Shown: positions 18,921 through 27,620 of the stretch, piece by piece
How positions within the stretch are numbered: position 1 is the stretch's first letter
Layout of the letters: every line of letters begins with the position of its first letter
IMG/VR virus record: IMGVR_UViG_3300007541_000077
Span: 1 to 35,356 of that record
Length of the DNA stretch: 35,356 bases
Direction: 5' to 3' (one strand)
Source of the DNA: a virus
Notes under the pieces: generated by a model
What the model was told of the DNA's origin: nothing
What the model saw: only the letters and a program-made list of their open reading frames with translations
The model's database searches: none
Made by a program: the position numbers and the translations under genes

Positions 18921-18946
18921 AAAGGGGAGCTTGGCTCCCCTTTTTT
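18921..18946. terminator. Bidirectional terminator between convergent blocks
   Basis: A 10-bp perfect stem (AAAGGGGAGC / GCTCCCCTTT), a 3-base TTG loop and a T-run on the plus side. The minus side has TTTCTTTTT, so it can stop both gp32 transcription and the inverted late block. It overlaps the stop of the minus-strand tape-measure-like gene. Confidence 0.9.
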
Positions 18947-21443
18947 ATGGACTAACAAATTGTAAACTTGAATTACTGTAATTTCTTACAGTGCTGTCCA
19001 TATTTCTGGTTCCCATTCTTCCTATGACAGCTTTATTGTTACTTACATTGTTTATGGTATTTGATCCATCTACTACATTAACAGCTGGTAGGTTAACTGG
19101 AGTTGTTTTAATCATTTCATTTTCTGTTGATAGATTGTTTATTGTTTGTTGATTAAGTTGTGATCCAGAAACATTTTTGTTTATTGGAGAGCCAAATTCA
19201 TCATACATTGTATAACCACTTATATCTATGGGTTTTCCAGCACCCCCATCGTCTTTGGATGAAAACTTCATAAGCTTCTCAGCTTGTTCTGGAGTAAGTT
19301 TATCTAGTGCTCCAAAGTCTATATCTTCTAGTTTGCTTATTTCTCTCGCTCCCCTTGCAAATGCGAACAGTCCCTCACCAAGTTCACTTAATCCCTTACC
19401 AACTTTTTTGAAATCTTCAGAGTGTTTTGCTAATTTTGTGTATACTGTAAATTTTTCTGTTGGATCTTCATCGTCTTTCCAAAAGGTCAGGGCACTGAAA
19501 ATATCACTAAAGAAACTTGACCCTGCCTCTAGAATACCTGCTCCAGCCATTTTTGCCATACCACCAGCCAATGCACTTAATCCTTGTCCTGCCTTTAATA
19601 GATTTTCCCCATCTATACCTGCAAAAGCATTTAATCCTGCAGCTAAATTGATCATCATCACTTTGATGCCACTACCATCCATTCCAAATACTTTCATTAT
19701 TTTCTCACCAACACCAAGTCCTAAGAAAAATCCTCCAAGACCAGCACCAATAGCAGTCATACCAAGAGCAGCTCCTCCTGCCATCGATGCTCCAATACCT
19801 GGAACAGCTCCAAATAAAGCACCAGCACCTAATAGTGCCCCAAAAGCAGCCAAACTTGGTCCGCTAAAGGCATTTAAACCCTCAGCCAAATTGACCATCA
19901 TGTCCCTTATTCTTCCACCATCTGCTCCCATCATCGTTGCTAGTCCATCACCAACAGCTAGTCCAGTAAAGAATCCACCTAATCCTAAACCTATTGCAGC
20001 CATTCCTACTGCTGCTCTACCAGCGACTTTTGTTCCAACCACACCAAATATAGCCCCAGCTCCCAACAATACACCCATAGCAGCTAAACTATTAGCATCA
20101 AATGCTCCAAGACCTTCGGCTAAATTTACCATCATATTCTTGATAGCAGTACCATCTGCTCCCATCATGGTTGCGAGTCCATCACCTGCAGCTAGTCCAG
20201 CAAAGAATCCTCCAAGACCAAGACCGATAAGAGCCATACCCGTTGCTGCTCTACCAGCAACCTTAACTCCTCCAACTATACCAAACAAAGCACCAGCACC
20301 TAAAAGTGCTCCAAGCGCCAACAATCCTTGTCCAGAAAATGCCTCCAATCCTTCGCCAATATTTACTAGTAATTTTTTTAAACTACTTCCATCTCCAAGT
20401 TTACCAATAATTAAGTCAGCTGCAGATAATGCTATGAAGAATGCTGCAATACCAGCACCGATGGCTGCCATTGCTCCTGTTATCCCCAGTAATCCCTTAG
20501 CAAGACCTCCTGCTTTTACTCCTCCACCGCCACCATCCGTACCACCAAGACTAGACATTGATCCTTTACCAACAACGTTAGCTTGTTTATCAGGAATATC
20601 TTTTTCAATTTTTCCTAATAGTTTTGTTTGGGTTTTTTGTTCTTTTTGCTCCTCTTTATATTTTCTTTCCTCAAGAACTGCGTTTCTATTGGAAGGGGAA
20701 AAATCACCTGTTAGTTGCTCACGTTTTGCGCTTGAACTTAGAGATGAGAAATTACCTGTTAGTTGCTCACGTTTTTCAAGTAATTCTTTTGCTCGGTCAG
20801 TTGTTGGAGCAAGTTTATCTGGAGTTGTTCCTTGATATTCAGCCTCTTTAGCTATTTCGGCTTCATTATCTTTTATTTGGTTAATTACTTTGTTTCTTTG
20901 TATAAATCTTTCGCTTAAAGTAGATATACTATCTGTACTTCCTAACGCTTTTTCTTGACGAATATACTTTTGCTTTTCTATTGCTTTGTTGAATATTCCA
21001 CCAAAGTTTAATTTTTCAAGAGCTGCAATTTTAAAGTTTTCTTTAGATCTAAATGTGTCTTTTAGTCCTGTAAATGCAGATCGTATAGGTCCAAGAAAGT
21101 CTTTACCGAATAAACCTTTAAACGATTTTGATGACATAGCAAGCTGAAGCGCAAAATCTTGACGAGCCTTTATTTCTTTATCTAGAGCATCTTCTAATTT
21201 ACTATCATTTTCATTGATTTTATCGCTCTCAATATTTTTAATATTTTCAATATTTTTAATATTTTTTTCCTGCAATTCTTTAGATTGTTTTACTACATCA
21301 AGCTGTTTTCTAGAAAGTAGTGTCAATTCTTTAAACATTATCGTTTCATCAATATGTGCAATGTACTTACCAATGGTTTTTGTTTCCTCTACCAATGATT
21401 TTTGTAAAGATAATAGTTCAGAAAATTTACTTTGATTTTCCAT
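18945..21443 (-). CDS. Tape-measure-like tail protein with hydrophobic repeats
   Basis: About 832 residues from the ATG at 21443, which shares one base with the gp51-frame stop (TGATG). Residues 1-110 are coiled-coil and Asn/Lys-rich (KNIENIKNIE). Residues about 180-285 are charged and helical, with a short duplication (REQLTGNF and REQLTGDF). A Gly stretch follows (GGTDGGGGG). Residues about 315-640 hold four copies of a roughly 78-residue hydrophobic repeat. The C-terminal quarter is polar. Position directly after the gp26/gp51 chaperone pair, coiled-coil content, hydrophobic segments and size fit a tail-length ruler in the place of T4 gp29. I see no direct sequence match to gp29. Confidence 0.65.
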   Translation of the reverse strand: MENQSKFSELLSLQKSLVEETKTIGKYIAHIDETIMFKELTLLSRKQLDVVKQSKELQEKNIKNIENIKNIESDKINENDSKLEDALDKEIKARQDFALQLAMSSKSFKGLFGKDFLGPIRSAFTGLKDTFRSKENFKIAALEKLNFGGIFNKAIEKQKYIRQEKALGSTDSISTLSERFIQRNKVINQIKDNEAEIAKEAEYQGTTPDKLAPTTDRAKELLEKREQLTGNFSSLSSSAKREQLTGDFSPSNRNAVLEERKYKEEQKEQKTQTKLLGKIEKDIPDKQANVVGKGSMSSLGGTDGGGGGVKAGGLAKGLLGITGAMAAIGAGIAAFFIALSAADLIIGKLGDGSSLKKLLVNIGEGLEAFSGQGLLALGALLGAGALFGIVGGVKVAGRAATGMALIGLGLGGFFAGLAAGDGLATMMGADGTAIKNMMVNLAEGLGAFDANSLAAMGVLLGAGAIFGVVGTKVAGRAAVGMAAIGLGLGGFFTGLAVGDGLATMMGADGGRIRDMMVNLAEGLNAFSGPSLAAFGALLGAGALFGAVPGIGASMAGGAALGMTAIGAGLGGFFLGLGVGEKIMKVFGMDGSGIKVMMINLAAGLNAFAGIDGENLLKAGQGLSALAGGMAKMAGAGILEAGSSFFSDIFSALTFWKDDEDPTEKFTVYTKLAKHSEDFKKVGKGLSELGEGLFAFARGAREISKLEDIDFGALDKLTPEQAEKLMKFSSKDDGGAGKPIDISGYTMYDEFGSPINKNVSGSQLNQQTINNLSTENEMIKTTPVNLPAVNVVDGSNTINNVSNNKAVIGRMGTRNMDSTVRNYSNSSLQFVSP
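19540..20475 (-). repeat. Four tandem ~78-codon repeats in the tape-measure-like gene
   Basis: Equivalent points of the four units (the GLGGFF or AAFF segments) lie near 19723, 19968, 20202 and 20435, so the period is about 233-245 bases. Each unit encodes GLGLGGFFxGLxxGDGLATMMG, then xMMVNLAEGLxAF, then LGALLGAGALFG. The two middle copies are the most alike and the outer two more diverged, consistent with growth of the gene by internal duplication. Confidence 0.85.
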
Positions 21444-21628
21444 CAATTTTTCCTACTTTCTAGTCTTCTTTTTTCTTCTTCTAAGTGTTGTACAAGTAAT
21501 GCAACATATATTTCTCTTTCAAATGGAATCATTTCTTCAATTTCTGTTAAACTATACTTATGATGCTGCATTAAGGCAAAATTTGTTTTATATAAGTTTA
21601 ACAGATCTTCATGACAAAGGTTTACTGA
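21443..21628 (-). CDS. 51: gp51 domain, probably made as a -1 frameshift extension of gp26
   Basis: A 61-codon frame encodes NLCHEDLLNLYKTNFALMQ followed by EIEEMIPFEREIYVALLVQHLEEEKRRLE. I recognise this as the gp51 baseplate hub assembly protein of marine T4-like phages. The frame has no ATG before its 20th codon and no ribosome binding site there. It is continuous with gp26 through a -1 shift on T TTT TTT at 21634-21628. The joined product would be 298 residues (237 from gp26 plus 61). This arrangement, directly upstream of the tape-measure-like gene, copies the G/GT tail chaperones of lambda. The stop TGA overlaps the next ATG. Confidence 0.75.
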   Translation of the reverse strand, partial: SVNLCHEDLLNLYKTNFALMQHHKYSLTEIEEMIPFEREIYVALLVQHLEEEKRRLESRKN

Positions 21629-22338
21629 AAAAAACTTGTTAGTCCCTCTATGACTTTATCGTGCTCTTTATTGCATACTGGACACGTATATTTTACATCA
21701 GTACTAAGTTTAGGTATTGTATCAAAAAACTTTTGTATTTTTCCAAACTGTTCTTGCGTAAGATTATTAATAAATTCCATAACTTCTTCTTTTGCAGTTT
21801 CTGCTGAGTGGTATATCTCATCGCTGTTGTAAATATAATCTATAGAATTGTATATTATTTCAAATATAGAATCTATTTGATCTGTGTTAGCATTTTCCAA
21901 TTTTAGTACAGTGTTAAAATTTGGATATTTCATAACTACACCAACATCATCAAATAGTTGGATTTTATTGCTATGATCTTCAGATTTCTTAACATCAATT
22001 TTAGTTAAGTCAATATCTAATTTTACTCTAGCTTTCTCATCATCACAGTCATCGCAAGCAAATATTAATTCTACTGTTTCTCCAACAGATTTAGCACGAA
22101 TTTGTGTAAACAAATATTCTAAGTCAAATAGTGCCAATTTTTCTACATCTATTTTACTAACTAAACAGGACGATATAACACTTTTTAATGTATCTGCCAT
22201 TACCCTTGGATCTTCACTTTGTTGCGCCAGCAAAAGAGCCTTTTCTTCCTTGATTAAAAATGGTCTAAACTTTGCGTCTTCACTAGAAGAAGGAATTTTT
22301 AAATTATATGTTGGTGTACTTTGAATCGGTAATGCCAT
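21622..22338 (-). CDS. 26: Baseplate hub protein gp26 (tail chaperone-like)
   Basis: A 238-residue protein (T4 gp26 is 208). MALPIQSTPTYNLKIPSSSEDAKFRPFLIKEEKALLLAQQSEDP and LALFDLEYLFTQIRAKSVGE are the typical conserved segments. Two CxxC pairs, FACDDC (about 90-95) and YTCPVC (about 222-227), could bind one zinc as in relatives. In T4 the protein is needed to build the baseplate hub. Here it ends on a slippery heptamer leading into gp51. The ribosome binding site AAAGGAG lies nine bases upstream. It is three bases downstream of the gp16-like stop. Confidence 0.88.
   Translation of the reverse strand: MALPIQSTPTYNLKIPSSSEDAKFRPFLIKEEKALLLAQQSEDPRVMADTLKSVISSCLVSKIDVEKLALFDLEYLFTQIRAKSVGETVELIFACDDCDDEKARVKLDIDLTKIDVKKSEDHSNKIQLFDDVGVVMKYPNFNTVLKLENANTDQIDSIFEIIYNSIDYIYNSDEIYHSAETAKEEVMEFINNLTQEQFGKIQKFFDTIPKLSTDVKYTCPVCNKEHDKVIEGLTSFFQ
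21628..21634 (-). promoter_or_regulatory. Slippery heptamer T TTT TTT for -1 frameshifting
   Basis: On the minus strand the gp26 codons read AGT TTT TTT CAG TAA. The seven Ts are in the phase required for tandem -1 slippage (X XXY YYZ). Slipping gives TCA GTA AAC in the gp51 frame, two codons before the gp26 stop. Confidence 0.7.
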
Positions 22339-25819: not shown

Positions 25820-26313
25820 TGTATTTTAGAAATTTTAACAACTTCTTCTACGACTTTCAAATTGGTGGAGAAAGAGTAATCACAAGAGTAAAAGATATTA
25901 CTAAGAATGTTAGATTGCGTACAGAAATACTTTCTAATGTAACTTTATATGATGAATATGATATTAAAGATGGAGATACTCCAGAAATTATAGCTGAAAA
26001 GTATTATGGTTCTCCAGAGTATCACTGGATTGTTATGCTGTGTAATGATAGGTATGACTGGTTGGCAGATTTTCCAATGACAACTCCAGCTTTATCTTCA
26101 TATGTAACTCAAAAGTATGGGTCAGGCAATGAATATGCTACACACCATTATGTTGATAATAATGGATTTGAGGTAGATGCAGATAATGCTGAGGCAACCT
26201 CTGTCTCAAATTATGCGTATGAAGACACACAAAACGAAACTAGAAGAAGAATAAAATTAATATCACCATCTTTATTAGCTAAAATTTTAAGAAACTTTGA
26301 AGATATAATTTAA
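25819..26313 (+). CDS. 53: Baseplate wedge protein gp53
   Basis: A 164-residue protein (T4 gp53 is 196). The central LysM-like segment YDEYDIKDGDTPEIIAEKYYGSPEYHWIVMLCNDRYDWLADFPMTTP is the family hallmark, and a C-terminal helix ends RRRIKLISPSLLAKILRNFEDII. gp53 clamps gp6 and gp25 in the wedge. It overlaps both neighbours by one base. Confidence 0.9.
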   Translation: MYFRNFNNFFYDFQIGGERVITRVKDITKNVRLRTEILSNVTLYDEYDIKDGDTPEIIAEKYYGSPEYHWIVMLCNDRYDWLADFPMTTPALSSYVTQKYGSGNEYATHHYVDNNGFEVDADNAEATSVSNYAYEDTQNETRRRIKLISPSLLAKILRNFEDII

Positions 26314-27620
26314 TGGTAACTGATTTAGAAGAAATTAGAGCTGCTGGAGATGTAATCTTAGGCAAAGCAGAGGTAGTAAACACTTCTGGGTTTGGTCAAG
26401 ACATTTCTAATCAGATATCAGGCATACAAATTTTTGAAAGCCTATTCGATCCATTTATAACTGGAGTATTAATTGTAGACGATACTCTAGATCTTATCAA
26501 TTTGTTTCCACTTGTTGGAGAAGAATTCTTAAACCTTTCAATAAGAACTCCAACCTTAGAAAGATTGGAAGATGGAACTAGCAGAACTATAACTGGAAAA
26601 TTTTACATTTATAAAGTTTCTGAGCGAGAATATATTGGAGATAAACGATTAACATATAAATTGCATTTTATCTCATTTGAAGCTTTGGTTGATCTTAATA
26701 AAAAGCTTTCTTTGCCGTTTAGGGGAAAGTGTTCTGATATTGCCAAAAACATAATATCTTCTGAGAGAGGATTAGAGTCAAAGAAAAAAATTTATATTGA
26801 AGAATCTGCAAACTCAATTAAATTTGTCTCAAACTTTTGGAGTCCTGTTAAATGCCTAAACTATGTTTCTGAAAGAGCTGTAAATTATAAAGATAGTCCA
26901 ACTTACTATTTTTATGAAAACAGAAATGGATTTAATTTTGGAAGTTTACAAAACTTAGCAGTTCAACCTCCAGTTCAAACGTTTACATATGATGCATATT
27001 CTAGAGATTTTAACAGTAATGGTCAGTCAATAAAAAATATTGAGGAAGAATACAAAAGAGTTAGAGATATTTCTGTGCCTGTTGTTTATGATTATATGGA
27101 AAGAATACGATCAGGAACATATACTTCAAAATTAATAACTCATGATCTGGCAACTAAACAGTATAATGTTAGAACTTTCAGTATGTTAAACAACTTCAAT
27201 AAAGAAGACACACTAAATCAAAATCCAATATCTTCAAGTAAAAATATCGCCTTTCCTGATGCTGCTTTGATGACAAAACCTCTTTGCAATTTTAACTTTA
27301 CTGGCTATGGAGATGTTACGACTAGCGATAAAGCATTGAAAAGAGTTTCTAAGATAAAACAGTTTAGATCTAATGCTATTGAGATAGTAGTTCCTGGCAG
27401 AACAGATTATACTGTTGGACAACGTGTTACTGTTATTTTTTATAAAAATACTCCATTGGCAGCAGGAGAAGATATTAAAGACCATATTGATAAAATCTAT
27501 ACTGGAACATATTTGATATCAGCAATAAACCATTATGTTAGTAGAAAAGAACACGAGTGTAATTTAGAATTGATAAAAGATTCGTATATAGTTGATTTAG
27601 ATGAGGGGGGAGTAATATAG
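26313..27620 (+). CDS. 27: Baseplate hub protein gp27-like
   Basis: A 435-residue protein (T4 gp27 is 391). Hub-type segments include ISNQISGIQIFESLFDPFITGVLIVDDT near 35-60, KFYIYKVSEREYIGDKRLTYKLHFISFEAL near 100-130, and C-terminal VPGRTDYTVGQRVTVIFYK with YTGTYLISAINHYVSRKEHECNLELIKDS. These are the folded tube-like domains shared by hub proteins that join tube and spike. It lies directly before gp5, its structural partner, which supports the call. The stop TAG shares its G with the GTG start of gp5. Confidence 0.8.
   Translation: MVTDLEEIRAAGDVILGKAEVVNTSGFGQDISNQISGIQIFESLFDPFITGVLIVDDTLDLINLFPLVGEEFLNLSIRTPTLERLEDGTSRTITGKFYIYKVSEREYIGDKRLTYKLHFISFEALVDLNKKLSLPFRGKCSDIAKNIISSERGLESKKKIYIEESANSIKFVSNFWSPVKCLNYVSERAVNYKDSPTYYFYENRNGFNFGSLQNLAVQPPVQTFTYDAYSRDFNSNGQSIKNIEEEYKRVRDISVPVVYDYMERIRSGTYTSKLITHDLATKQYNVRTFSMLNNFNKEDTLNQNPISSSKNIAFPDAALMTKPLCNFNFTGYGDVTTSDKALKRVSKIKQFRSNAIEIVVPGRTDYTVGQRVTVIFYKNTPLAAGEDIKDHIDKIYTGTYLISAINHYVSRKEHECNLELIKDSYIVDLDEGGVI

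Follow-up and report, generated by a model that had tools for sequence, protein, structure and literature searches.

The gp26/gp51 locus of a marine T4-like virus raises the question of how its gp51 reading frame, which opens without a nearby start codon, is translated. The window analysed here is the 35-kb virus record IMGVR_UViG_3300007541_000077. Its minus strand carries the T4-type genes gp4 (head closure), gp2 (DNA end protector), a tail tube protein, the small terminase gp16, gp26 and gp51 as well as one long gene, and the plus strand carries gp48, a tail protein (phrog_350, gp27 by position) and gp5. The gp27 gene at 26313-27620 has a G-rich 3' end (GAGGGGGGAG, window 27604-27620) that includes an in-phase GGGGGGA and precedes the overlapping GTG start of gp5. 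Most simply, this G-rich end is the ribosome binding site of gp5.

The gp26/gp51 junction

The gp26 gene (21622..22338, minus strand) is an ATG open reading frame of 238 amino acid residues that probably corresponds to a short, TAC-N-like chaperone form and matched the families PF12322 and phrog_150 (E 8.2e-64 and 1e-69). Its 3' end reads GGA CTA ACA AGT TTT TTT CAG TAA. As the initial annotation had stated, the heptamer T TTT TTT (21628..21634, minus strand) lies in the X XXY YYZ phase of a slippery sequence, two codons before the gp26 stop. A Shine-Dalgarno-like GAGGG (21644..21648, minus strand) is located 9 nt 5' of it, and the junction segment of the window carries the GAGGG and AGTTTTTTTCAGTAA. 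In-phase T6/A6 heptamers are scarce in the window, with 16 per about 10,900 codons. Since they are so rare and the site is invariant in the relatives described below, the heptamer at the junction is not a matter of chance.

Free of stop codons from 21655 onwards, the -1 frame closes with a TGA at 21445-21443, and this TGA shares bases with the ATG of the tape-measure-like gene that follows (TGATG). The initial annotation had described an uninterrupted frame of 61 codons; the frame is indeed uninterrupted, but about 59 codons lie beyond the gp26 stop. The resulting extension, a TAC-C-like gp51 domain (21443..21628, minus strand), was recognised by 60 residues that match phrog_634, 'baseplate hub assembly catalyst', with an E value of 2.5e-26. 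Its residues also match the C-terminal end of phrog_150 (positions 239-280 of 282), and some members of phrog_150 are therefore fused proteins. When the gp51 stretch was read in another frame, many stops were encountered. Between 21655 and about 21571 the -1 frame contains no ATG, GTG or TTG, and the first ATG stands at codon 20 counted from the slip. The claim that gp51 has no ATG before this codon was therefore correct and extends to GTG and TTG.

Conservation of the junction in relatives

The gp26-gp51 frameshift fusion was used as the tblastn query, and 834 phage records were matched. Where the match consisted of two pieces and these were compared, they were offset by -1. Complete junctions were read in 204 cases, from viral contigs and named phages; the 178 considered here are those outside the Ackermannviridae-like phages, minus one broken contig. 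In all 178, T TTT TT(T/C/G) is present in phase and at most 4 codons from the gp26 stop, so that the alignment of junctions showed a heptamer that is universal outside the Ackermannviridae-like group. The carriers include Kyanoviridae, the pelagiphage HTVC008M, Pootjesviridae (with TTTTTTG), the KVP40-like Vibrio phage nt-1, Aeromonas Aeh1 and Asswx_1, Cronobacter LPCS28, Stenotrophomonas BUCT608, Vibrio EniLVp02 and Rhizobium/Sinorhizobium phages, and among them the identity of gp26 to that of the window is as low as 22%. In close relatives of the window a stop codon often follows directly after the heptamer. At the junctions that were read, the gp51 frame is unbroken, and its protein sequence is conserved.

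In one pelagiphage contig gp26 is broken at codon 162, probably by a sequencing or assembly error. The existing annotations vary: gp51 is unannotated in S-H9-1, Asswx_1, LPCS28 and Aeh1 and is annotated from an internal ATG in S-T4 and HTVC008M.

Could gp51 be made as a separate protein once gp26 has terminated, either through reinitiation or with a non-standard start codon? Among the 66 non-redundant relatives, 8 have, in addition to the heptamer, an ATG that overlaps the gp26 stop (TAATG/TGATG), and the GenBank annotators place the start at such a stop-overlapping ATG or at an internal one, which would both fit a separate product. However, in the window and in 39 of the 66 relatives the -1 frame lacks ATG, GTG and TTG as far as 16 nt beyond the stop, and the absence of a gp51 start noted in the window thus extends to most relatives. 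A start at the internal ATG would omit the conserved HEDLLNLYKTNFAL, in line with the earlier remark that conserved sequence would be lost. Reinitiation also leaves the invariant T TTT TT unexplained, and gp51 of T4 is itself a fused protein. We consider a separately started gp51 very unlikely. For the relatives with both the heptamer and the stop-overlapping ATG, a mixture of frameshifting and reinitiation is possible. The finding named beforehand as one that would contradict frameshifting was a set of relatives in which gp51 has an evident ATG and ribosome binding site and the heptamer is missing; the outcome favours frameshifting. Judged from the sequence, the gp51 domain is very probably translated only as a fusion with gp26.

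Codon choice at the heptamer

The codon usage at the junction was compared in the 66 non-redundant genes, with the rest of these genes as the background. The codon 5' of the two phenylalanines ends in T in 66 of 66 genes, and the same residues elsewhere have a T-ending codon at a frequency of 0.54. The codons seen here are AGT, TCT, GAT, GCT and AAT, and none ends in C, A or G. The first phenylalanine is encoded by TTT in every gene (66 of 66; background 0.64). The second codon varies between TTC, TTT and TTG, as -1 slippage permits, with 37 TTC and 2 TTG among the 66. Formal probabilities of 1e-20 for the preceding T and 1e-15 for the first TTT were obtained, which overstate the independence of these related sequences. 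Given the spread of hosts, the synonymous constraint at the heptamer is nevertheless clear.

The two phenylalanines might instead be kept for reasons of the protein alone, with the heptamer being incidental and gp51 a relic or unexpressed. The gp26 family does end in a conserved GLxxFF, and this includes gp26 of T4. For a control, we inspected the T4 gene, where FF is retained and encoded as GAG TTC TTT, which is not slippery; the 66 shifting genes, in contrast, all have NNT TTT. T4 gp26 need not shift because T4 gp51 itself is the full long form. Together with the intact and conserved gp51 frame and the essential role of gp51 in T4 (PMC3004832), this makes a purely protein-based conservation of FF the most improbable of the explanations considered.

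Possible stimulators of the shift

The Glu codon of the GAGGG is GAG in 37 of 52 relatives, compared to a background of 0.30 GAG in the same genes. This preference therefore suggests that GAGGG is a likely Shine-Dalgarno-like stimulator in a dnaX-like arrangement; dnaX frameshifting also uses a Shine-Dalgarno-like stimulator. A prediction of downstream RNA structure, as proposed by the initial annotation, gave no stem-loop 3' of the heptamer in the window (z +1.85 and +0.5 in two computations). A cyanophage subgroup has a 10-bp stem that starts 6 nt 3' of the heptamer. Over 22 cyanophage sequences the mean z downstream of the heptamer is -2.95, and 87% of the pairs form in 40 aligned sequences. 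Compensatory change was limited to a single pair (UA replaced by GC or AU), so that the support from covariation is modest. These observations are hints of lineage-specific stimulators.

They also bear on slippage of the RNA polymerase on the T run, by which a base of the mRNA would be lost or gained and the fusion would arise at transcription. The run of seven Ts in the window would be suited for this, but in most relatives the run stops after six Ts, at a C or G, and is short for transcriptional slippage. The T run also keeps the X XXY YYZ phase, and in many relatives the GAGGG or a stem-loop is placed at distances typical of ribosomal stimulators. Transcriptional slippage is hence highly improbable, and a shift of the ribosome is preferred.

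In Ackermannviridae and the Vibrio D531/K475-like phages a single gp26 gene is followed by a gp51-like domain, which again lies in the -1 frame. No canonical tandem slippery heptamer was found at their junctions, which read NTT TTY ATY TAA or CTT TTY NNN TAA. In the stretch that leads from the presumed slip point to the earliest possible start, 12 Ackermannviridae sequences have 3, 1 and 8 variable sites, of 13 each, at the -1-frame codon positions 1, 2 and 3, respectively. Because the variation falls mainly at position 3 of the -1 frame, the stretch before any start appears to be translated in this frame. We tentatively propose that this chaperone family may set the ratio of the short to the long form in at least four ways: by the heptamer with GAGGG in the clade of the window, by the heptamer with a downstream stem-loop in the cyanophage subgroup, by two separate genes in T4, and in Ackermannviridae by a shift into the -1 frame at NTT TTY, where a canonical tandem slippery site is missing.

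The gene following gp51

The gene that follows gp51 (18945..21443, minus strand) encodes 832 amino acid residues with 7 TM-like hydrophobic segments, and homologues are present in 33 related loci. A family search with the 832-residue protein gave no match at E<=1, and comparisons with T4 gp29 and with the tape measure of HTVC008M gave no significant match. In the annotation of HTVC008M a 'putative tail tape measure' is listed. From its position, its length, its hydrophobicity and this annotation, the gene is a probable tape measure gene.

The T4 pair and the fold of gp26

The relation to the two T4 proteins was examined with the same families. T4 gp51 matches positions 13-280 of phrog_150 and in addition phrog_634, and T4 gp26 matches positions 14-235 of phrog_150 only. 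T4 gp51 therefore combines a gp26-like domain and a gp51 domain in one open reading frame. Two PF12322 genes are present in T4 and in an Aeromonas T4-type phage, and one in each of 18 other genomes. Both T4 proteins are counted among the hub assembly chaperones; assembly requires gp51, and the particle does not contain it (PMC3004832).

An AlphaFold model of the window gp26 (pLDDT 86.9) was compared to known structures. The N-terminal domain had the HK97 tail assembly chaperone 2ob9 as its best match (Z 7.8, 84 residues, rmsd 3.9, identity 10%), followed by 3fgx (Z 7.7) and then by matches with 4.7 and 2.6; both leading values are below the Z 8 line and in the grey zone. Foldseek against the PDB alone returned nothing below E 0.8 for the model and had the HK97 chaperone at rank 4, which topped the structural list only after realignment. 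The HK97 protein aligns with the N-terminal 85 residues of the gp26 model, whereas the additional C-terminal 150 residues, approximately, of gp26 are outside the match. The model is thus suggestive of a tail assembly chaperone fold in the N-terminal domain. The view of gp26 and gp51 as a chaperone pair of the G/GT type gains from the in-frame long form of T4, the copy numbers of PF12322 and the HK97-like N-terminal domain.

The proposed mechanism

Taken together, we hold with high confidence that gp26 would be made as a short form and, by -1 frameshifting, as a gp26-gp51 long form, comparable to the gpG/gpGT pair. Most ribosomes that translate gp26 would end at the TAA and produce the short chaperone gp26. 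A minority would move back by one base at T TTT TTT, where the tRNA-Phe in the P-site and the A-site can pair again with TTT, and would then read about 60 more codons to give the long form. The GAGGG 9 nt upstream probably aids the slip. The short and the long form may act as gpG and gpGT do in lambda and coat the tape measure protein, and the extra domain of the long form may recruit parts of the tube or the hub before the chaperones leave. The occurrence and the rate of the slippage, the function of both forms and the effect of the GAGGG are what we infer from these comparisons.

This reading connects gp26 and gp51, two hub factors of T4 that had long counted as assembly proteins without a clear role, with the tail assembly chaperone system in general. 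It would also correct the records of T4-like genomes in which, as often happens, gp51 is left out or is cut at an internal ATG.

Comparison with known systems

The slippery sequence of lambda is G GGA AAG and differs from that of the window, where the extension has about 60 amino acid residues and the next gene is only a probable tape measure gene. Like the window, lambda has a short chaperone and a -1-extended long chaperone, gpG and gpGT, beside the tape measure gene (PMC5009743). T4 gp26 and gp51 are direct homologues of the short and the long form of the window, but in T4 they are encoded by separate genes on opposite strands and without a frameshift, whereas the window has one gene and a -1 frame. 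Vladimirov, Gautam and Davidson reportedly named genes 26 and 51 for T4 and found frameshifting retained in several T4-like groups. According to a review of 2016 (PMC5009743), G-T frameshifting is a conserved trait of long-tailed phages 'except T4'. The tail assembly chaperones of T4-like phages were then reportedly identified by Vladimirov, Gautam & Davidson (2022, Virology 566:9-15, doi 10.1016/j.virol.2021.11.003). In some T4-like phages, as is reported from that study, frameshifting is replaced by two genes, one for the short form and one for the fused long form (PMC10885494), and the study is also cited for poly-T slippery sequences that the short-form genes of T4-like phages carry in some groups (PMC12846349). 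As described there, the T4-like chaperones have short and long forms, as predicted for the window, which is another environmental member. Because the 2022 study closed the T4 gap, gp26/gp51 frameshifting is an already published phenomenon in T4-like phages and the window is a well-supported new example of it. In conclusion, the window adds to this known system a clean case with strong comparative support and with hints of stimulators that differ between lineages.
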